14,865 bases of DNA, taken from contig WJIO01000364.1 of the NCBI GenBank assembly GCA_014730235.1, positions 1 through 14,865 on the forward strand. The letters are read 5' to 3'. The notes under the pieces are model-generated. The model was not told the DNA's origin, made no database searches, and worked only from the letters and a program-made list of their open reading frames with translations. The DNA is from Candidatus Poribacteria bacterium. Lineage in GTDB: Bacteria; Poribacteria; DTPJ01; WJIO01. This document shows, in pieces, positions 1-12,728 of this stretch. A program made the position numbers and the translations under genes. Positions within the stretch are counted from its first letter, which is position 1; every line of letters begins with the position of its first letter.

Positions 1-3000
1 GCCGGGAATACTTCGTAAGTTCCATGAATCTGAAGCGTCGTCGTATCCAATACCCAGGGCTTTGCCGGGATCTGCAAGGATGTTCAGTTGAACCATGAAA
101 TCCCTGCGGATTCTTCCGTCCTTTGTGCCGCGTCGGCGAAAAACTATGCGTGATTCCCAGCAGTGTAAGGTACGATGGAATGAAAAACTTAAATTGCTTA
201 TATCTTTAACTCTGTCATCATATTCATACTCTAATTCACACCTTAGACTCCAAATCCTGCTTAATCGGAGGTTTAATTTGCCTGAAAAAAACTGTCTCCA
301 TTCATCCCCGTATTGGTAATAAACACTTTGCCTTCTCAGGTATGCCGTCCATTTTCTTTCAGGAGCGGAATATCTGGCATCGGTATTGACAGTAATTAAA
401 AAAGGCTTTTCATTGTTGAAATTATTGGGGTTGTTTTCCAGAACAGTGCCAAACTCCCACTGCTTATTGGGTGTTAGTGTAAAAGTATTCCTTACCCTGT
501 CATAACGTCTGTCTGAGTCTTTATCCTCGGTATAGTCGGCTCCGGCACTGAGATTCCATCGAAAAAGGGATATACGCTCGCGTTTCTTCTTTGTCTTTAT
601 ATCTATACTATTAGTCATGCTGACTGTCAATCTTTTTCTTTCATAAGTCCATACGGCGGAACCAAAGGGATACAAACTCGGCTCTATTTCTTCCTGGCGT
701 TTTTCCGATTCTCCCGGAGGGGCATAAGTGAAACCTATGGAAGGTCTTACCGTATGTTTAAGTGCATGAAGTCCAGGAACAAATGATGGGTAGTAAATTC
801 GGTGTAAATCTGTACTCAACCGGGCAGAGGCGTTCCAGGCATTGCTAAAGACATTATATTCGCGTTCGTCAAAATCCCAACTTGGTTCTATTTCTTCTTC
901 ATCAAGGTAGATCAGACTGTTGCCTAAAGGTTGAGTTTTGCTATGCCATATTTGGCGATAAGTTCCATCAAGATCCAGATTAAATTCTCTGGTGACACCA
1001 AGCCTGATTATTGCCCTTTTACTTAAAGTTGTGCTGGCATCGGCTGTTTGAAGCCAGATATTATTTTCATCTCTATATTCATCCTTGTAATAATTTCCTA
1101 CATTGGTATCAAAAGATACTGAAGTATTATTAAGGGTGATAAAACCCAGGGAAGGTCTTGATCCTTCATCAAGCTTTCGGTAAATTATATCAGACAGCTT
1201 GCTGGCTTCGTCTTTTGTTCTGATGTTGGGGTCAATGGCAATGAAAATGTGACGGGCTTTTACCTGTATACGCTGGCCTCGCTCCTGTTTTACATCCTCT
1301 ACCTTTACTATCTGATAACCACCGGTAACGGATATGGGTTCGCTGATATCCCCGGGTTCCAGCTTATTGGGATCAAAAATATCAGCTTCAACTTTAGATC
1401 CCAGACCGCTTTCGCCTTTTCTAAACCACCCAAGGTCACCGCCAAGTTTCCGGGTGCTGGGATCGTCTGAAAACTGTCGGGCTAAATTTGAAAAACGGGA
1501 TTTACCCTGAATCCGGTCAGAGATATAAAGTAATCCTGAATTTGCCCTCTTAAAAGGCTGAATCTCGTTCAGACGATATCGAGGAAGTCTAAGGCTGAAG
1601 TCCGGATATTTTTGCAGCAGACCAGTATCCTCCCCCAGCAGATCCCTTGTTCCATCAACTATCAACCTTGCGCTGCCCCTGGAGGCATGTTTAGACATCC
1701 AATAATAATCAAACGCGCAGTATGACCTTAATTCCTGTTCGGGTCGGTAGCTTTGATAGACCTGCTTATATTCCTTACCGGCCAGGCTTAACTCGGCCCT
1801 CATGGCCAGGGCTTTTTCCATCAACAACTTTTCCTGTCGTGTAGCTGTGTCGTATTGCTTTCTTTCGCCGCCACGCCAGAGAGTCTGGTTATGGTGTATG
1901 TTTACATCCCAGGTTCGACCCAGCTTTATGGGGTTGTCGTCAATCTGGTACGAATATAACTCACCATAATTTAAGTAAACATCGCCGCCAAGACGACGCT
2001 TCTTTTCGATTTTAACTATGCGGTAGCCGTCCTCGCATTTAATGGGCCTTGTTATATTGCCAATCTCAGTCCGGAAGGCCTCTTTTCTGACTTCGGGTTG
2101 TAGTTCCCATTTATTTCGATAGCCAATGTCTCCACCAACTTCGGCAGTAGGAGCTTTTGAAAGCTGTTTAGCTAACTCCCCAAAATCTGGTGTTGGTTCT
2201 TTGTCCTCTAATTTCAGTATATAAACACCTCGCTGAGTGTTAATGGGCCTGCTTATATCACCTTTATTAAGCCTTCTTAAAGGTCTGTGGAAGGATATAT
2301 CCAATTCCTGGAAAGTTGTCCATCCAAGGTCGCCGCCTTTTGAGGCTGATTCCTGGTGATCTGAATGTTCTCTGGCCAATTCTTCAAAAGATACTCCCTC
2401 AGAAAGTTTAGTTAATATATCATCAGCTTCGTTTTGTGCATCCTCCTGGGCTTTGTCACTGGGTCTAAACTCCAGGAATATATATCTTACTACGGCTTTT
2501 TCCTTATCATCACCTTCCAGCTTTACTATAAAATAACCGTCCTTGGTCTCGATGGGTTCGCTTAACTGATTGGGCTGAAGTTCATAAGCGGTTTTTATCA
2601 CAGGATACAGGAAAGATGGAACAGGTTCTGTTTCATCCCTTATCTTTTTACTTATACCATTTTCATCAATTACATAATTTTCCAGAGGGCCCAGGTAACC
2701 ACCCCTTGATTTAGTGTCTTTATCGTCAGACCATCTTCGGGCTAACTGGCTGAATTCTGAATCTTCTTCGTTGAGCTTTTCCATTAGTTCCTGGACGCGT
2801 TCCCGGGTTTCCTCTTTTTCAGCTTCGCTTATCTGGAATTTAATAAATATCTGTTTAAGCCATATTTTATCCAGTTCACCAGTAGCCCTTTGAAGTATAT
2901 TCTCTATCTCTTTCCGGGTATCAAGCCATTGGGAGCTTGAAGCATCCTCTGGCACAGGTATGAAAATTTCCCGCAGGCTTATTTTATCTGCATCATAATC

Positions 3001-3786
3001 AAATTCCAGACCGCCGCTGGTACCGCGCCGGGTAGTATAATTCAGGAACAAAGAACCATCCAGCATCCTCCATCGGACAGGCAGGATGTTTTTGACGTAG
3101 TAACCCTCATATGTGTTGGAACCAAGTTTAAATATAAATCTTGATGGCTTTTCTTCCTCCAGAGAACGCCTGTAGACGGGAAGATACAACATGGGTATCC
3201 CACCGACTTTAAAAACCACATGCTTTGCGATCAATTCTTTTTTCAGATGAATGACGATCTTGGAAGCTTCAAAAACATAATGAGGTTCGCTGAGGGAGCA
3301 ACTGGTCATTGACCCTTTTTCTATGTAGGAATCATCGGCAGTAAGACGGGTCATCTCATCGCCGGAGTTATACCAGGGTCTATCGAAGCTTGTTCCATCA
3401 CGCATTATTCCCCGTTTGTCTTTCAGGTCAAATATCATACTCTCGGCCAGTATAGTCTGATCTTTCATCTCAAGGATAACATTACCTTGAGCTTCTACGA
3501 CTTCCCTTCTTAGATCAGCCCATACATGGTCAGCTTTTAGGGTAACATCCTCATAAACAACCACAGCATCGCCATGAGCAGTTCCCATTTGCTGGCTGAA
3601 GAACCAGTTTACCTTTCCGCCAGAACCTGTGGTTATGGATACGGTGTTTTTTTGATTTTCCTGCTGGGGATCGGATTTGTCTTCTTCATCCTGGGCGGGA
3701 GTAATATCTACGGTTAGAAAAAGCAGAATTAATAAAAGTGAAATAAGATAAAGTATACTATCTGAGCTTTTATGAGTTTTCTCCAT
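1..3786 (-). CDS. lptD: LptD-type LPS-assembly outer-membrane protein with inserted parvulin domains (3' end cut by window)
   Basis: The frame is open from ATG at 3786 to the window edge (1262 codons, no stop), so the C-terminus is missing. LptD is the barrel that inserts LPS into the outer leaflet. Seen in order: hydrophobic signal segment (about 9-32); OstA/LptA-like beta domain (about 55-190), with the TSC motif (C163) typical of the LptD N-domain; the GGIPMLYLPVY motif (196-206); early barrel strands (208-282); insertion 1 (about 285-600) with two full parvulin modules (307-426, 430-527) and a half module (533-598); barrel (600-748); insertion 2 (about 750-877) with a permuted parvulin module; then a long barrel with RPSIGFTYAPP (1014-1024) and C1209 near the end. 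Ordinary LptD proteins are roughly 750-1000 aa. The gene lies 22 bp after surA without a clear Shine-Dalgarno, so it is probably co-transcribed and perhaps translationally coupled. The LptD assignment is firm; the side of the membrane for the insertions is unknown. Confidence 0.9.
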   Translation of the reverse strand, partial: MEKTHKSSDSILYLISLLLILLFLTVDITPAQDEEDKSDPQQENQKNTVSITTGSGGKVNWFFSQQMGTAHGDAVVVYEDVTLKADHVWADLRREVVEAQGNVILEMKDQTILAESMIFDLKDKRGIMRDGTSFDRPWYNSGDEMTRLTADDSYIEKGSMTSCSLSEPHYVFEASKIVIHLKKELIAKHVVFKVGGIPMLYLPVYRRSLEEEKPSRFIFKLGSNTYEGYYVKNILPVRWRMLDGSLFLNYTTRRGTSGGLEFDYDADKISLREIFIPVPEDASSSQWLDTRKEIENILQRATGELDKIWLKQIFIKFQISEAEKEETRERVQELMEKLNEEDSEFSQLARRWSDDKDTKSRGGYLGPLENYVIDENGISKKIRDETEPVPSFLYPVIKTAYELQPNQLSEPIETKDGYFIVKLEGDDKEKAVVRYIFLEFRPSDKAQEDAQNEADDILTKLSEGVSFEELAREHSDHQESASKGGDLGWTTFQELDISFHRPLRRLNKGDISRPINTQRGVYILKLEDKEPTPDFGELAKQLSKAPTAEVGGDIGYRNKWELQPEVRKEAFRTEIGNITRPIKCEDGYRIVKIEKKRRLGGDVYLNYGELYSYQIDDNPIKLGRTWDVNIHHNQTLWRGGERKQYDTATRQEKLLMEKALAMRAELSLAGKEYKQVYQSYRPEQELRSYCAFDYYWMSKHASRGSARLIVDGTRDLLGEDTGLLQKYPDFSLRLPRYRLNEIQPFKRANSGLLYISDRIQGKSRFSNLARQFSDDPSTRKLGGDLGWFRKGESGLGSKVEADIFDPNKLEPGDISEPISVTGGYQIVKVEDVKQERGQRIQVKARHIFIAIDPNIRTKDEASKLSDIIYRKLDEGSRPSLGFITLNNTSVSFDTNVGNYYKDEYRDENNIWLQTADASTTLSKRAIIRLGVTREFNLDLDGTYRQIWHSKTQPLGNSLIYLDEEEIEPSWDFDEREYNVFSNAWNASARLSTDLHRIYYPSFVPGLHALKHTVRPSIGFTYAPPGESEKRQEEIEPSLYPFGSAVWTYERKRLTVSMTNSIDIKTKKKRERISLFRWNLSAGADYTEDKDSDRRYDRVRNTFTLTPNKQWEFGTVLENNPNNFNNEKPFLITVNTDARYSAPERKWTAYLRRQSVYYQYGDEWRQFFSGKLNLRLSRIWSLRCELEYEYDDRVKDISNLSFSFHRTLHCWESRIVFRRRGTKDGRIRRDFMVQLNILADPGKALGIGYDDASDSWNLRSIPG

Positions 3787-3808: not shown

Positions 3809-5107
3809 CTAATCTTCGGCCAATACCTGTATATAAGATTTCTCTCTGAGTTTTTTTGAATACTCAGCCAGCTTTTCCTGTAGCTTTCTATGGCTGATAA
3901 GTTCTCTTAGCTGTTCTTTTTCGTCTCTGCTTAGTTCCTGCCGATCAACAATTTTGAAAATATGGAAACCCAAAGGAGTTTTAACAGGTTTACTTATCTG
4001 ACCAACCTGAAAAGATTCAAAAGCATCTTTAAGTTCCGGACCCATGGATTCGATGGGTATCTCTTTCCAGTCGCCGCCTTCTTCTCTGGTTAATGGATCC
4101 TGAGAATATTTACTCACCATAACAGAGAACTTTGCTCCAGTTTCAATTTCTTTTAATATGGAGTTGGCTTTTTGTTTCACAGCTTTTTCCACATCCGGGG
4201 AGGGCCATATTGCAATATGAATACGTAGCACCTTTACGGAGCCTTCTTTTTTATCAACTAATTTCAGAATGTCATAACCTCCAGGAGTTTCTATAGGGAA
4301 ACTGATCTGACCTACCTGAAGTTCTGAAGCCGCTTCTTCCAGTCTAATGTCATATTTACCCATGCCTGGTATAAAATAGCCCAGGTCTCCCCCGGACTCC
4401 CTTGTAGGTTCATGATCCGAGAACTGCCGGGCCAGTTCGGCGAAATCTTCGCCGCTTTTAGCCATATTAATTATTTTTTCGACCTTTGCCAGAGCTTGTT
4501 CTTTGTCTTTTTCAGTTATATCAAATTTAAGGAAGATATGCCTGAGTTTCAGGACATCAGATTGCCCAGGAAATTGGTCTTTGTTTTCTTCATAAAAATC
4601 TATGATTTCTTGTTCTGTTACCCGGATATCCTGTCCAAATTGCTCTTCATTAAGCCTTTGGCTTAGAAGCCTTCTCTTAATATCCCGTTTGAAGGTGTCC
4701 AGATTATAACCTTCAGCAGCCAGGGCCTCTTTAAATGCTTCTTCCGATCCTGTTTGGTTTCTAAGAGTATTTACATACTGTTGAACTTCGGCATCAGTAA
4801 CCCTTATCCCTCTTTTTATGGCTGCCTGAATAAAAAGCAATTCATCAACCATCAGTTCCAGGAGTTCAGGTTTTGCAGCTTCCATTTCTTTCAGTAATTT
4901 CTGCTCATCCTGATAAAAAGGCCTTCTTAGTTCTATCTCTTTCTGCATTCGCTCTTCAAGTTCGGTTTTTGTAATCACCTCGTCACTTACTATTGCTACT
5001 ATTTTTTCAACTATTTTTGCTCTTAGGGATAAAGTTGTATATAGGGAAATAATTAGAGTTAGTGTGCATAAAAAGATGATTCGGAATTTTGAATTTCTTT
5101 TATTCAT
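3809..5107 (-). CDS. surA: SurA-like periplasmic chaperone / peptidylprolyl isomerase
   Basis: This is a 432-aa periplasmic chaperone of the SurA family, which holds unfolded outer-membrane proteins on their way to the barrel assembly machinery. Seen: a signal peptide (about 1-30, ending SLRA), a SurA N-domain with the VAIVSDEVITKTEL start (37-50), then two tandem parvulin domains. The first (about 187-286) has RHIFLKF, ARQFSD and GGDLGYF. The second (about 292-388) has YSQD, GGDW and GFHIFKI. A C-terminal helix (about 390-425) follows, as in E. coli SurA, which is close in length. Domain 1 keeps the first His (RHIF) but has Asp in place of the second (GYDI). Domain 2 lacks the first His but keeps the second. 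Catalysis may therefore be weak. The gene lies 138 bp after the lipoprotein gene and 22 bp before lptD. Its Shine-Dalgarno is poor. Confidence 0.92.
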   Translation of the reverse strand: MNKRNSKFRIIFLCTLTLIISLYTTLSLRAKIVEKIVAIVSDEVITKTELEERMQKEIELRRPFYQDEQKLLKEMEAAKPELLELMVDELLFIQAAIKRGIRVTDAEVQQYVNTLRNQTGSEEAFKEALAAEGYNLDTFKRDIKRRLLSQRLNEEQFGQDIRVTEQEIIDFYEENKDQFPGQSDVLKLRHIFLKFDITEKDKEQALAKVEKIINMAKSGEDFAELARQFSDHEPTRESGGDLGYFIPGMGKYDIRLEEAASELQVGQISFPIETPGGYDILKLVDKKEGSVKVLRIHIAIWPSPDVEKAVKQKANSILKEIETGAKFSVMVSKYSQDPLTREEGGDWKEIPIESMGPELKDAFESFQVGQISKPVKTPLGFHIFKIVDRQELSRDEKEQLRELISHRKLQEKLAEYSKKLREKSYIQVLAED

Positions 5108-5159
5108 TTTTCTGGTTGTCTCTGGTTAATGTAGTTTTCTACGATTTTACGAAAAAAAA

Positions 5160-5213
5160 TTGTAGGTTAGTTTTGAGTCTGCGAAACCCAACAGCAGAAT
5201 TAGGTTTCGCAGA
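5160..5213. repeat. Dispersed-type palindromic repeat / hairpin upstream of surA
   Basis: An 11-bp perfect inverted repeat (5178-5188 and 5203-5213, TCTGCGAAACC / GGTTTCGCAGA) encloses a 14-nt loop. The adjoining segment (TGTAGGTTAG, then TTGAG and GCGAAACCCAACA) resembles the widespread bacterial repeat built of GTAGGTTGGGTTGAG and CGAAACCCAACA; that comparison is from memory. It fills much of the gap between the lipoprotein gene and surA. On the minus strand a run of eight T (5152-5159) follows 18 nt after the hairpin. Confidence 0.6.
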
Positions 5214-5245
5214 TATAGGCAGATATAATACAATCCCAACTTTTA

Positions 5246-6223
5246 TTATTCGCTATTTTCTGTTTCTTTTTCATTAGACTCAGCGGTTTCTTCTTCAGTC
5301 ATAGCTTCTTCTCCATCGGCTTCCGTTGTATCTGCTTCCTCAACCACCTGAGGTATCTTTTCGGGATACAGTTTGAAATCATTCTCAGCCTTTAATTGAG
5401 CCAGCCACTTATCCATTCTTTCTTTCTTCTGATCTTTTTCCACAGCCCTTCTGATCTTTTTCTCTACCTCTGAGAATTCCTTTTGTCTAGGCGGAATACG
5501 TTCATCCAACCTTATGATCATATAGTATGTCTTTTCACCTATAGGCTGGACTATAATATCGCTCATGGCTCCAACTTCCAGACTGAAAGCTGTATTTACA
5601 AATTCCTGAGCTGATGAGAAGGAATCCTGGCTAAAGGTAACTTTACCTTCATTGCGCTGACCAGGGCCAACGGATTCGGCTTTGTCCGACATTTCCTTTG
5701 CCAACTGGGTGAAATCAGCACCGGATTTTATCTTTTCCATTATCTCTTTTGCTTTTTCTTCATCTTCTAGGGTTATTTCTGTTACAGCTACTTTTTCAGG
5801 CTCTACATATTCGTCTTTGTGCTGTTCATAATATGTTTTCAGGAAATCATCCGTTATGTTAATTTTGTCGTCAACTTCCCGTTTTACCAGTTCTTTGACA
5901 ATAAGCTGGTCTTTATATTCCTGAGTCTGTTTGAGTATCTCAGGATCTTCATCTAGACCTTTATCGTTGGCGACTTTGAGAAGCATCCTGCTTTCGGCCA
6001 TAAGTACGAGATATTCCTCTTTACCTTCCTGATCTGTATATTTTTTCTTTTTGTATTCAGGCAACTCGGAAATTTCATTTTCAAGCTCAGTTAAGGTTAC
6101 GGTTTGATTGTCGAATTCAGCCAGGATAGTTCCAGTCTGGGCTTTTTGGGAACATCCTGTAAATAAAGAAACAAATACTGAAAGCATTAGTAAAGTAACG
6201 CTTAAACATATAACCTTTTTCAT
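5246..6223 (-). CDS. Parvulin-type (PpiC/PrsA/SurA-like) peptidylprolyl isomerase lipoprotein
   Basis: The protein is 325 aa from the ATG at 6223. This start is chosen because AGGAGG (6230-6235) sits 6 nt upstream and because it gives a clean lipoprotein signal: MKK, a hydrophobic stretch, then LFTGC with the lipidated Cys at 24. A longer frame to 6316 would add 31 residues that spoil the signal peptide. After the Cys comes a SurA_N/PrsA-like helical region (about 30-139), then a divergent parvulin domain (about 141-240, with DFTQLAKEMSD and a C-terminal YYMIIRL strand). A charged helix follows, then a very acidic low-complexity tail (about 293-325) rich in Glu and Thr. The catalytic His residues of active parvulins are not evident, so a chaperone role is likely. 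The protein would sit in a periplasm-facing membrane leaflet. Its neighbours mfd, surA and lptD match an envelope-biogenesis operon. Confidence 0.85.
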   Translation of the reverse strand: MKKVICLSVTLLMLSVFVSLFTGCSQKAQTGTILAEFDNQTVTLTELENEISELPEYKKKKYTDQEGKEEYLVLMAESRMLLKVANDKGLDEDPEILKQTQEYKDQLIVKELVKREVDDKINITDDFLKTYYEQHKDEYVEPEKVAVTEITLEDEEKAKEIMEKIKSGADFTQLAKEMSDKAESVGPGQRNEGKVTFSQDSFSSAQEFVNTAFSLEVGAMSDIIVQPIGEKTYYMIIRLDERIPPRQKEFSEVEKKIRRAVEKDQKKERMDKWLAQLKAENDFKLYPEKIPQVVEEADTTEADGEEAMTEEETAESNEKETENSE

Positions 6224-6229
6224 TAACAT

Positions 6230-6235
6230 CCTCCT
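6230..6235 (-). promoter_or_regulatory. Ribosome binding site deciding the lipoprotein start
   Basis: AGGAGG on the minus strand directly abuts one ATG (6229) and lies 6 nt from the second (6223). Only the second has workable spacing, so it is taken as the start. This excludes the 31-residue upstream extension. Confidence 0.75.
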
Positions 6236-6376
6236 ATTATAACGCCAGAGTTTAATATTTGTCGCGTATTGAATATTTTGGTTCTCCCGACTTGGGTGCG
6301 GAAATGAAAATAACACGCTTATAAAAGTTTTTCATTTTTAACACACTAACTTCTAAAGAACCAAATTTTTAATTAT

Positions 6377-6406
6377 GTAGGTTATATCACCAATATTTAA
6401 ACCTAC
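6377..6406. repeat. Short inverted repeat downstream of mfd
   Basis: GTAGGTT (6377-6383) and AACCTAC (6400-6406) form a 7-bp stem around a 16-nt AT-rich loop, in the 245-bp gap between mfd and the lipoprotein start. No T-run follows on the minus strand, so it is a weak terminator candidate at best. The TGTAGGTTA end also occurs in the repeat upstream of surA. Confidence 0.35.
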
Positions 6407-6468
6407 GCAAAAAACTACAAAATCAATTTAACTTTTTGAATTCAAGATTATGGAAAATGATAACATAC

Positions 6469-9400
6469 TTAGATAAGCCGTCGCAAGACATTTTTTATTG
6501 TCCTTAACTGCCTATCCTGACCTGCCCCCTTTATATCAACCAGCAGTTGGTCTGGTGGTATCAGTTTTATATTTTTCTGATTTTCCACCATATGAATAAT
6601 CTTCTGCGGATTTACATTTGTTTTTTGTGTATCGAAAGATACCTTGACCACATCGCCACTGGAAATAATTTCACTTGCCCCTACTTGTTGAGCCAGACGT
6701 TTTATATCCGCTATCTCCAGTAGACGATTAACCGGTGGAGGAGGGTTACCATATCTGTCCTTTAATTCGGTGATCATACTGGAATTCTCTTCCTCGCTGG
6801 ATATTTGAGCGATTTTTTTGTAAAGAGAGACTTTTTGACTGCTATCAGAAACATAATCATCGGGCAGATATGCATCAACAGCAAGGTTAATACTGGATTC
6901 AAATTCTTCCTGGACTTCCTCGCCTTTTACCTCTTTTACGGCTTCTTCCAGAAGCTTGCAGTATAAATCGTAACCTACAGCGATCATGTGCCCGTGCTGC
7001 TCTGCCCCCAGGATGTTACCCATTCCCCGAATTTCCAGATCTCTGAGGGCTATTCTGAATCCTGCACCCAGGTCTGTAAATTCCTCAATAACCCGTAGAC
7101 GTTTCTGGGAATCTTCTGTAATAGACCGACCTTCGGGATAAAACAGATAACCGTAGGCTTTATAACGGTCGCGCCCCACTCTTCCCCTCAATTGGTAAAG
7201 CTGAGCCAGACCCAAAGCGTCGGCACGGTTTATTATTATGGTATTTACATTAGGTATATCCAGACCTGATTCAATTATAGTGGTGCATACAAGAACATCA
7301 TATTCGTAGTCTATGAAGTCCATCATCACCTCTTCAAGTTGATGTTCTTTCATCTGACCATGAGCAATGGCTATTCGGGCTTCGGGTACAAGGTGAAGCA
7401 AACCGTTGGCGATACTGGCAATGCTCTGAACCCTGTTGTGGACAAAAAACACCTGTCCCCCTCTATCCATCTCCCGAAGTATAGCTTCCCGGACAATTTC
7501 CGGGTTGTATTCCATAACGTAAGTTTCTATAGGCAGTCGGTTTTCCGGTGGGGTGTTGATAACGCTTAAATCCCGGGCCCCAACAATAGACATATGAAGA
7601 GTTCGGGGGATAGGTGTGGCTGTTAGGGTTAAAATATCCACAGTCTTACGCATTTGCTTCAGCTTTTCTTTTTGCATAACACCGAAACGCTGTTCTTCAT
7701 CTATTACCAATAGGCCTAGATCCTTGAATTTTATATCTTTGGATAACAGCCGATGAGTTCCGATTATAATATCAATTTTGCCTTGAGTTATCTCCTCAAG
7801 AGTTTCTTTAATCTGTTTTGAAGTTCGAAATCTACTTAACATACCTATTTTTATTGGATAGGCTTCAAATCGCTTTGTAAAGGTATTAAGATGCTGTTGA
7901 GCAAGAATGGTTGTAGGTACTAATACTGCAACCTGCTTTCCGTCCATAACAGCCTTAAAAGCTGCTCTCATGGCGACTTCAGTCTTACCATAGCCCACAT
8001 CACCACAAACAAGTCTATCCATTGGCCTTGAGCGTTCCATATCATTTTTGACATCTTCAATAGCAGTGCGCTGATCCTCTGTTTCTTCATATGGAAATGC
8101 AGCTTCAAATTCCTTTTGCCATGTAGTATCCGGGGAAAACGCGTGGGCTTTTCCGGCTTCTCTGGCTGCGTATAGTTCCAGTAGTTCTTTTGCCAGACGA
8201 CGAACAGATTCTTTTGCTCTTCTTTTAACCTTGCTCCAGGAAGCACCTCCCAGCTTGTCAACCTTCAGCTTTGTCTCATCACCGCCGATATATTTTTGAA
8301 CCATACCGATCTGGTATGTTGGCACGTAAAGAACATCAGTGCCGGCATAGCTGATCTTCAGGAAATCCTGTTCCCTTCCACCTATCTTCAGCTTTTGTAT
8401 GCCTTCATATATCCCGATTCCATGAGTTACATGGACAACATAATCCCCTACCTTTAAATCCACAAAGCTGGATATGGGAACACCTTCTTTAAACTTGCGT
8501 CTTCGTCGTCTACGTCTGTGACGGCCAAACATCTCATCATCAGAGACCAAAGCCAATTGGAGATCATCGGAGACAAAACCCTCGCTGATAATACCGATTT
8601 GAACATTTACACCCTCTATTCCTCTTTCGGAAATTATCTCACGCATGCGTTCTGCCTGTTTCTCATTATCGCTCATGATCATCACAGAATAGTCTTTAAC
8701 TCTCCAATTTTCTATCTCCTGTAAAAAAACCTGGAAATTCCCCCTAAGACCTGCAAAGGATCGCATTTTGAAGGTAAATGTATCCTCATGATCGATTTTA
8801 ACAGGTTCATTTCTGCCGACATTTCTGCTGGGATAAGAATATACAGTCTTTTTTTTCTGACATATTTTTAATATTTCATCAAAATTACTGAATATCTCCG
8901 AGGGTGGTACAGCAGGTCTATCCAATTCAATTTCTTTTTGGAAAAAGGTGTCAGCTTGTTCTATCAGCTTTTCAGCTTCCGATTGCAGCCAGTTTGGCTC
9001 ATCCAGAATTATAATAATGTCCTGGGGCATGTAATTCCAAAGGTTTGCCAGATCGGGATAAAGAAAGGGTAAATAACCTTCTATGCCATCAAACCTGCTG
9101 TTTTGTTCCAATCTTTCAGTCAAAAGTTTTATTTCATTTGTAAGTTTGGGGGATTTGTATTTTTCCGATAACTCCTGAGTTCGTTTTTGCCAATATTCAA
9201 TAACATTAGGAGAAAGGATTATTTCACTCATGGGTACAACCCATGCTTCGTCTTTCTTGCGCTGGGTAGAAAGCTGAGAAATAGGGTCAAATTCTCGGAT
9301 GGAATCCACCTCATCACCGAAAAGCTCAATACGGATAGGAATGTCATATGCCAGGGGAAATATATCCATAATTCCACCCCGCAGGGCAAAATCACCCTTC

Positions 9401-9936
9401 ATCTCCACCATATCAAGCCTTTGGTAGCCACTGTGTATTAAGGTCTCTGTGATATTATCCAGATCAATTATGTCACCAACTGCAAACCTTATAGCTGCAC
9501 TTAGAAATAGCTGGGGGGATATTAGCTTTTGCATTAGGGCCTGTATACTGGTAACCAGTATACTTCTGTGACCGTGAATAAGCCTTTCCAGGGAAAGCAT
9601 GCGGTCTGCTAACACTATACTCGGAGGTGAGGCCCCACCATGAAGGAAAGTCTGCCATTGGGAAAATAGTAGTATCCCCTCATCATCTTCAACGCCTTCA
9701 TCAATGGGCTTGTTAAAGGCCTGTAGTTCCTGCAATAATTTTTCAGCTTCATCCTGATCCTGGGTAACTACCAGAAACGTAGTATCAGGTAAATCCTGCA
9801 TCATAGTAGCTATTAAATAAGCTCTGGATATACCTTTAAGGCCTTCAACTCTTATCTGATCTCTGTCATGGCTAAGAGCTGGTAAAAGGGATTTATAAGT
9901 CTGGGATTCTCTAAGTATATTAAGCAGATTCAGCAT
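6469..9936 (-). CDS. mfd: Mfd transcription-repair coupling factor
   Basis: The protein is 1155 aa, the usual Mfd length (E. coli about 1148). It removes RNA polymerase stalled at DNA lesions and recruits UvrA to begin nucleotide excision repair in the cytoplasm. Seen in order: a UvrB-like N-terminal module (about 1-350, with [12 protein letters not shown] at 183-194); a linker with an unusual run of basic residues (472-481); the CarD-like RNA-polymerase-interacting domain (about 490-550, [16 protein letters not shown]); superfamily 2 helicase motifs: Walker A GDVGYGKT (645-652), DEEQ (746-749), TATPIPRT (772-779), [16 protein letters not shown] (891-906), [10 protein letters not shown] (915-924); then the C-terminal TRCF domain (about 1010-1105). 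No good Shine-Dalgarno precedes the ATG. The gene lies 80 bp after the aminotransferase on the same strand. Linkage of mfd to parvulin genes is also known in Deltaproteobacteria. Confidence 0.97.
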
Positions 9937-11360: not shown

Positions 11361-12728
11361 ATGAATGTCATCGTAATCTTTCTGGACAGTTTCAGGCAGG
11401 ATCATTTAAGCATTTATAATCAGGGGAATGCACCATTTCCCAATATTCCCGCCTGCAATACACCTAATCTGGATAAATTTGCAAAACAATGCGTTATATT
11501 TGAAAACGCATATCCTGAAGCATTACCCACAATTCCTGTGAGATGTCAGCTAATGACTGGACAAAGAACTTTACCATTTCGCCCCTGGGAACCTTTGACA
11601 TCTCAGGATATTACTCTTACAGAGATTTTACGAAAACAGGGATATATATGTGGACTTATTTCTGATACCTATCATTATCGCGCACCGGGAATGAATTACC
11701 ACGCTAATTTTCACGAATACCGATGGATTCGGGGACAGGAATATGATCCTTATGTTTCGTCTCCGCCAAAGAGGGATGTGGAAAATTACGTTAATGAACA
11801 TTATACAGATAAATGGAAAAACCGAATTAAACAGTTTCTGGCAAATACAGATGATTTCACCTCGGCAGAGGACTGGTTTCCAGCCAAAGTAGTAAAAGAA
11901 AGTGTTCGCTGGCTTAAGGATAATCGCTCTCATGATAAGGTTTTTCTGTGGATAGATTCCTTTGATCCTCATGAACCCTGGGACCCTATAGAAGAATTTG
12001 ACACATATACCGATCCTGATTATGAAGGTTCCAGGCTTATTATGCCTATGGGTGGTATTGCAGATCACTGGGCAAGAGATCATGAGATTGAGTATATACA
12101 GGGACTTTATGCTGGTGAAGCATCTTTTGTGGATCACTGTCTTGGAGAATTATTTGAAAACCTTCAGGAACTTGGTTATTATGAGGATTCAATAATAATA
12201 CTTCTGGCGGATCATGGCCATCCCCTTTGTGACCACATGAAGTTCCTTAAAGGATCTGATAGGATGTATAGTGAGTTGTTGAAAGTTCCATATTTAATAC
12301 ACCTGCCGGGTGGCAAAAACGCAGGCATGAGGACAGATGCTATTATTCAGTTTCACGACACATTGCCGACTATCCTGGAATTGCTGGACTCAAGCTGTGT
12401 CTCAGGTACTCATGGTGAAAGTTTTGTGCCAGTGCTTTATGGTGATACAGATGAGCATAGACAGGCCATGATTACCGGATATTATCAAGGCATAGACCGC
12501 TGTATAAGGGATAAAACATGGAGTTACATACAAAGACCGGAAGATGAACCGGATGAGCTATATAACCTTCAGAAAGATCCCAGGGAAACAAAAAACCTTA
12601 TTGATAAGCATACAGAAGAAGCCAAACGCCTTTCGGCCATGTTTGGTGACTACTTCCGACAAATACCAGCCAAGGTTATTAAAGGTGTGCAGGAAACTTA
12701 TGAAATGGTTTCAGGTAGTGTTGAATAA
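11361..12728 (+). CDS. Sulfatase-superfamily hydrolase with Thr at the nucleophile position
   Basis: The protein is 455 aa with an arylsulfatase (alkaline-phosphatase superfamily) fold. ATG follows AAGGAGG (11349-11355) by 5 nt. Seen: N-terminal metal Asp in VIFLDSFRQDHL (D9, D14); CNTPNLDKFA (32-41); active-site segment TIPVRCQLMTGQR (57-69); FDPHEPW (201-207, His204); LLADHGH (281-287) with metal ligands D284 and H285; K294 and K297 near the active site; and the C-terminal ELYNLQKDPRETKNL (399-413) typical of sulfatases. The usual C/S-x-P-x-R, whose Cys or Ser becomes formylglycine, here reads T57-I-P-V-R61. Formylglycine cannot form at Thr, so the enzyme may be a phospho- or sulfo-hydrolase with Thr as nucleophile, as in related superfamily members. 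No signal peptide is visible, so it is probably cytoplasmic. The substrate is unknown. A hairpin follows the gene. Confidence 0.85.
   Translation: MNVIVIFLDSFRQDHLSIYNQGNAPFPNIPACNTPNLDKFAKQCVIFENAYPEALPTIPVRCQLMTGQRTLPFRPWEPLTSQDITLTEILRKQGYICGLISDTYHYRAPGMNYHANFHEYRWIRGQEYDPYVSSPPKRDVENYVNEHYTDKWKNRIKQFLANTDDFTSAEDWFPAKVVKESVRWLKDNRSHDKVFLWIDSFDPHEPWDPIEEFDTYTDPDYEGSRLIMPMGGIADHWARDHEIEYIQGLYAGEASFVDHCLGELFENLQELGYYEDSIIILLADHGHPLCDHMKFLKGSDRMYSELLKVPYLIHLPGGKNAGMRTDAIIQFHDTLPTILELLDSSCVSGTHGESFVPVLYGDTDEHRQAMITGYYQGIDRCIRDKTWSYIQRPEDEPDELYNLQKDPRETKNLIDKHTEEAKRLSAMFGDYFRQIPAKVIKGVQETYEMVSGSVE

Follow-up and report, generated by a model that had tools for sequence, protein, structure and literature searches.

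Many Gram-negative bacteria cannot live without LptD, which is also a drug target. Outside Proteobacteria the question is how the jellyroll of LptD stays in place over the gate when disulfides are absent. The locus described here raises this question for Poribacteria, a sponge-associated phylum. The window, i.e. the whole stretch of 14,865 nucleotides that was analysed (contig WJIO01000364.1 of a Candidatus Poribacteria bacterium), holds a reading frame in which LptD segments alternate with parvulin segments. Is this frame an LptD, how are the parvulins built into it and what might they do there?

The lptD-parvulin gene was delimited by ORF, Pfam and contig overlap. It covers 1..3786 on the minus strand, on which all of its parts listed below are located, and is a single open frame of 1262 codons (residues 1-1262) without an internal stop. 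The frame exceeds the window edge; contig C29, from the same genome, overlaps it by 47 residues and supplies MGRVGGFLRPGSSSYYY and the stop codon. Once the overlap is joined the full length is ~1279 residues, the last 17 of which are encoded on C29. A probable Sec signal peptide was read from the sequence at residues 1-31 (...LTVDITPAQ; 3694..3786). Pfam searches with the window protein yielded Rotamase in four stretches (E 1.8e-66) and LptD_2 at residues 887-1075 (E 4.7e-9). This bears out the first-pass annotation, which had seen an LptD core with SurA-type parvulin modules in one uninterrupted frame, and both of the insertion sites it had proposed were recovered by alignment and module profiles.

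The first 280 residues gave weak matches to LptD and to CT351-barrel proteins (NCBIfam). In profile-profile comparison an insert-free poribacterial profile matched the LptDs of E. coli and other proteobacteria over the full length (probability 99.6%, E 1.3e-23, 630 columns). AlphaFold models were available for residues 63-1262 of the window protein (pLDDT 74.5, pTM 0.55) and for the homologue L055 (pLDDT 78.8, pTM 0.57). VIA-align against an LptD model gave Z values of 19.9 for L055 and 18.6 for the window protein over ~600 residues, and the top 23 Foldseek hits of the L055 model were all LptD structures (best E 2.8e-21). The barrel, for which the first-pass annotation had suggested a structure prediction, was modelled with 26 strands in the window protein, as counted from the DSSP listing with the inserts left out at limits that we assigned. 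The protein has an N-terminal jellyroll followed by an LptD-type barrel: the jellyroll (beta-taco) comprises residues ~50-208 with the lone Cys163, the counterpart of E. coli C173 (3163..3639; profiles and models), strands beta1-beta4 residues ~213-267 (2986..3150; alignment and model), beta5-beta10 residues 598-748 (1543..1995; alignment and model) and beta11-beta26 residues 878-1262 including the LptD_2 match (1..1155; Pfam and model). P236 is invariant and aligns with P246, the hinge proline in beta2 of E. coli LptD. LpxC was present in 58 of 58 poribacterial genomes and LptE exceeded the cut-off in 24 of 58 at the sensitivity used, among them the genome of the window, which also has two LptF/G genes. 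With LpxC, LptF/G and LptE as pathway genes, poribacterial LptD would be expected to insert LPS into the outer membrane. Judged by its sequence, the frame 3786..1(-) is a genuine LptD, presumably a working LPS-translocon protein in a phylum-specific form.

Insertion 1 had been placed at residues 285-600 and read as three successive parvulin domains, P1 to P3. The insert as such stands, yet its limits are 268-597 (bases 1996-2985) and the succession of three domains does not hold. The Rotamase match of P3 spans profile positions 34-96 only, so the first third of a parvulin, beta1-alpha1, is missing, while the stretch just upstream of P1, ISLREIFIPVPEDAS...LQRATGE, resembles beta1-alpha1. Joining this stretch (P0N) to the P3 remainder (P3C) raised the Pfam Rotamase score from 52.4 to 66.5 bits. 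An independent profile built from SurA/PrsA domains alone gave a mean gain of 17.2 bits in 60 sequences, compared to 1.0 for shuffles, and in 60/60 sequences the gain surpassed all 20 shuffles. In the L055 model residues 229..546 superposed as one parvulin on PrsA (6vj6, rmsd 1.1 A over 91 residues) and on SurA P1 (1m5y, 1.6 A over 101 residues), and 266..479 matched a two-domain PPIase over 208 residues. In the window model the parvulin matches span 241..470, and thus the pairing of halves within P1 and P2 is ambiguous there. Because of the profile-score gains and the L055 superpositions, the best reading of insertion 1 is a single parvulin interrupted between its helices 1 and 2, in which two tandem parvulins are predicted to be nested (306-531).

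The modules of insertion 1 are P0N, beta1-alpha1 of the split parvulin (residues 268-305, 2872..2985), the nested parvulins P1 (306-428, 2503..2871) and P2 (429-531, 2194..2502), and P3C, alpha2 to beta4 of the split parvulin (532-597, 1996..2193). P0N and P3C were assigned by profile scores and model, P1 and P2 by Pfam, alignment and superposition; by Pfam, joined-profile scores and superposition the LptD modules show the parvulin fold and profile. The SurA_N chaperone core was absent from the LptD protein and present in the neighbouring SurA according to Pfam. L047-L054 and other copies of the main family carry a long, variable acidic low-complexity linker rich in Glu, Gln and Asp after helix 2 of P3C, which is absent in the window copy and in G016 and G057.

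Profile-profile alignment mapped insertion 1 to E. coli LptD residues ~282-285, two strands past P246 in beta2. The models show continuous strands at both edges, E193-215 and E525-549 in the window protein and E217-239 and E534-558 in L055, which supports the view that beta1 of the split parvulin (in P0N) continues barrel beta4 and its beta4 (in P3C) continues barrel beta5. An even number of strands precedes the site and insertion 1 is therefore predicted to be periplasmic; the same parity count applies to insertion 2 after strand 10. Model and alignment support a graft of insertion 1 on the periplasmic beta4-beta5 turn. Because its edge strands continue beta4 and beta5, the parvulin block would hang from this turn on the lateral-gate side, near the jellyroll hinge. 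A surface-exposed cap, one of the functions suggested at first, is unlikely with both sites on the periplasmic side by strand parity.

Insertion 2 (residues 749-877, 1156..1542; alignment and profile scores) is a different matter. It contains a parvulin as annotated, but in the order alpha2-to-beta4 followed by beta1-alpha1. Restoring the usual order increased the Pfam score from 56.6 to 67.6 bits and the score with the independent SurA/PrsA profile from 40.0 to 64.9, while 200 shuffles reached at most 51.6. We read insertion 2 as a circularly permuted parvulin on these scores; the window model, mostly of low pLDDT here with one stretch below 50, gives the fold no support. The insert was found only in the window genome and in G001, i.e. 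in two families of one order, and in no other copy; the equivalent turn of the other copies has a short helix instead. Between the window and G001 its identity is 56-63%, similar to the 47-61% found for the remaining protein. By this distribution insertion 2 appears as a separate order-level addition outside the phylum-wide feature.

The homologues for which the first-pass annotation had suggested a search were found: all 58 sampled poribacterial genomes, from 14 genera, carry the fusion. With alignment-built profiles the order jellyroll, P0N, P1, P2, P3C, mid-barrel and C-barrel was read in every one of the 65 complete copies at named loci. With the single window protein as query no related loci were detected; an alignment-based search recovered them. 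Several of the copies are located on single-contig chromosomes. A profile search detected no parvulin module in outgroup LptDs (Omnitrophota, Planctomycetales, Proteobacteria and others). Among the matches listed for 77 outgroup genomes (58 Omnitrophota and 19 of the phylum of locus L125) there was no LptD-parvulin fusion and no LptD frame above 816 residues in a contig scan seeded by jellyroll patterns, which a non-poribacterial fusion with a divergent jellyroll could escape. A plasmid search returned partial parvulin-region matches only, mostly to SurA. Taken together the fusion is phylum-wide, old and vertically inherited. In a domain tree the LptD modules clustered by kind (P03 98/87, P2 82/85 and P1 100/95, the last without the copy of the window); with 101 columns and weak deep forks it does not resolve an origin from SurA P1 or P2. 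P2 or insertion 2 of LptD and P1 of the neighbouring SurA share 39-40% identity, which is only suggestive of origin. The parvulin block probably arose from SurA-type parvulins, an origin we propose because surA is the neighbouring gene.

Directly upstream of lptD in the window lies surA with SurA_N and two Rotamase domains (3809..5107, minus strand; Pfam), preceded by a PrsA-like parvulin lipoprotein with the lipobox ...LFTGC (5246..6316, minus strand; ORF and domain searches). This arrangement, with surA immediately upstream and in the orientation of lptD, was found in 58 poribacterial loci. The order mfd, parvulin lipoprotein(s), surA, lptD (window 3809-9936) is conserved across much of Poribacteria, so that a row of parvulin genes ends in LptD. 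The lipoprotein of G001 (L037:810-2804) has 664 amino acids and two Rotamase_2 stretches, like that of family f4; outside G001 and f4 its place is taken by one or two separate genes, each encoding ~330 amino acids. Elsewhere in the window we noted by eye a putative sulfatase-like gene (11361-12728) and, at the contig edge (14434-14865), a putative helix-turn-helix transposase-like, IS630-like frame.

Most of Poribacteria keep a full SurA with two parvulins. Family f4 (G003, G040 and G055; also L064, L067 and L099) has beside lptD a core-only SurA of ~223-288 residues as read, in which SurA_N is directly followed by the C-terminal segment and both PPIase domains are missing, while LptD retains its parvulins. 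These genes are at L045:3868-4542 (+), L047:6970-7641 (-), L046:3346-4212 (-), L064:5863-6690 (+), L067:6014-6688 (+) and L099:6081-6755 (+). In f4 the parvulin pair accompanying the SurA core is present only inside LptD. This would link SurA with LptD and is the best argument for a cis-chaperone, as a correlation within one clade.

If the LptD parvulins served as isomerases, the active-site residues should be retained. Pin1 has paired active-site histidines, H59 and H157, at neighbouring positions of the parvulin active site. Histidine at both positions was found in none of the P0/3, P1 and P2 modules of 60 sequences. The commonest pairs were Glu/Arg in the split domain (50/60), Gln/His in P1 (50/60) and Arg/Tyr in P2 (49/60); the replacing residues are module-specific and themselves conserved. 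Insertion 2 has one histidine (RHIF) and Gln at the other position (GGYQIVK). The SurA-type profile of the modules, which had been called chaperone-like, stands, but the paired catalytic histidines are lacking throughout, and by sequence we infer that the parvulin block is not an isomerase. The two halves of the split parvulin might be linked by a salt bridge between Glu273 and Arg589. Median dN/dS was 0.05-0.18 for the insertion-1 segments and 0.03-0.09 for barrel and jellyroll; dS is near saturation and the absolute values are rough. Insertion-1 modules show purifying selection in these codon comparisons.

The cysteines provide a further clue. E. coli LptD has the interdomain disulfides C31-C724 and C173-C725, which anchor the jellyroll at the turn between beta24 and beta25 (beta24-beta25 anchoring: PMC12644819). 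We regarded them as a trait of the E. coli protein and did not take them to define the whole LptD family. Mature poribacterial LptDs have 0-1 Cys in 57/60 sequences, the single conserved Cys aligning with E. coli C173, so disulfides of the E. coli type cannot form in nearly all copies. LptDs of other phyla may lack both the disulfides and such inserts.

The loss of the disulfide cysteines and the location of the block beside the gate lead us to favor, tentatively and at somewhat short of an even chance, a permanent non-catalytic module that would act in cis, as a brace or dock for the jellyroll above the lateral gate. The block would do the positioning that in E. coli is done by disulfides and the lipoproteins LptM and LptY. 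Alternatively, the block may act in cis as a built-in chaperone of LptD assembly, which is a real possibility if a doubtful one. Its modules are SurA/PrsA-type next to a surA gene, and the core-only SurA of f4 points in the same direction, as does E. coli, where the N-terminal half of the LptD barrel is largely unstructured at BAM and tended by BepA (PMC8423444). The missing catalytic pair in 60/60 sequences speaks against it, yet chaperone activity would still be possible because the core of SurA suffices to complement a surA deletion, the roles of the PPIase domains being unclear (PMC11366764). Two other observations weigh against assembly: the block is joined to barrel strands on both sides and so remains after assembly, and since most of the phylum keeps the full two-parvulin SurA, the domains were not simply relocated from SurA. 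That LptD is a client with its own chaperone built in, so that f4 SurA shed its PPIase domains because LptD has them, we consider rather unlikely. The bracing or docking role fits as well as, or slightly better than, folding of the barrel in cis.

Less probable still is that the block, instead of bracing LptD itself, serves as a docking adaptor for a partner, be it LptE, a lipoprotein or a bridge of the LptA/LptC type. E. coli lipoproteins do bind the same region, LptM on the periplasmic side of beta1-beta4 adjoining the jellyroll hinge and LptY at the jellyroll (PMC12644819), and the conserved module-specific residues in place of the catalytic ones would suit a docking surface; however, the candidate partner LptE is detectable in only the 24 of 58 genomes mentioned above. 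Functionless inserts, tolerated in periplasmic turns after surA recombination, might explain the long, variable P3C linker in the main family and the absence of GGDLG from P2 in several lineages, but presence of the block in every genome examined and low dN/dS make a neutral passenger most improbable. A chimera in which surA and lptD were joined by assembly or binning is suggested by surA adjacency alone and is practically excluded because the same order recurs in independent MAGs and single-contig chromosomes. This is in favor of the first-pass annotation, which had named a chimeric assembly as a refutation.

As far as found, the architecture is undescribed, as supposed at first: the open-access literature yielded no LptD with parvulin domains. 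Poribacteria represent a natural experiment, a whole phylum that has lost the LptD disulfides and in which parvulins are attached to the barrel next to the gate. Poribacterial LptD also offers a testable system for the question whether the dispensable-looking PPIase domains of SurA serve LptD specifically. If true, a split parvulin with a nested pair, strand-continuous with an outer-membrane barrel, would be a new way of attaching a periplasmic domain.

Poribacterial LptD resembles E. coli LptD/Imp (LPS-assembly protein) in its jellyroll, its barrel modelled with 26 strands, the lateral-gate hinge proline in beta2, the C-terminal aromatic end of poribacterial relatives and the LPS genes of the genome. 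Unlike E. coli LptD it has a parvulin block in the beta4-beta5 turn and, in one order only, a permuted parvulin in a second turn, and it lacks the cysteines of the interdomain disulfides. The tandem pair P1-P2 resembles P1-P2 of SurA, the product of the adjacent gene; in contrast to SurA with its SurA_N and two parvulins, LptD has no SurA_N and never both catalytic histidines, and its pair lies within a third parvulin, which is split and runs into the barrel. Likewise, the split domain of the L055 model superposes on the PPIase domain of PrsA (see above), yet differs from parvulins of the PrsA/PpiC type in being discontinuous in sequence and in the replacement of the His pair by Glu and Arg.
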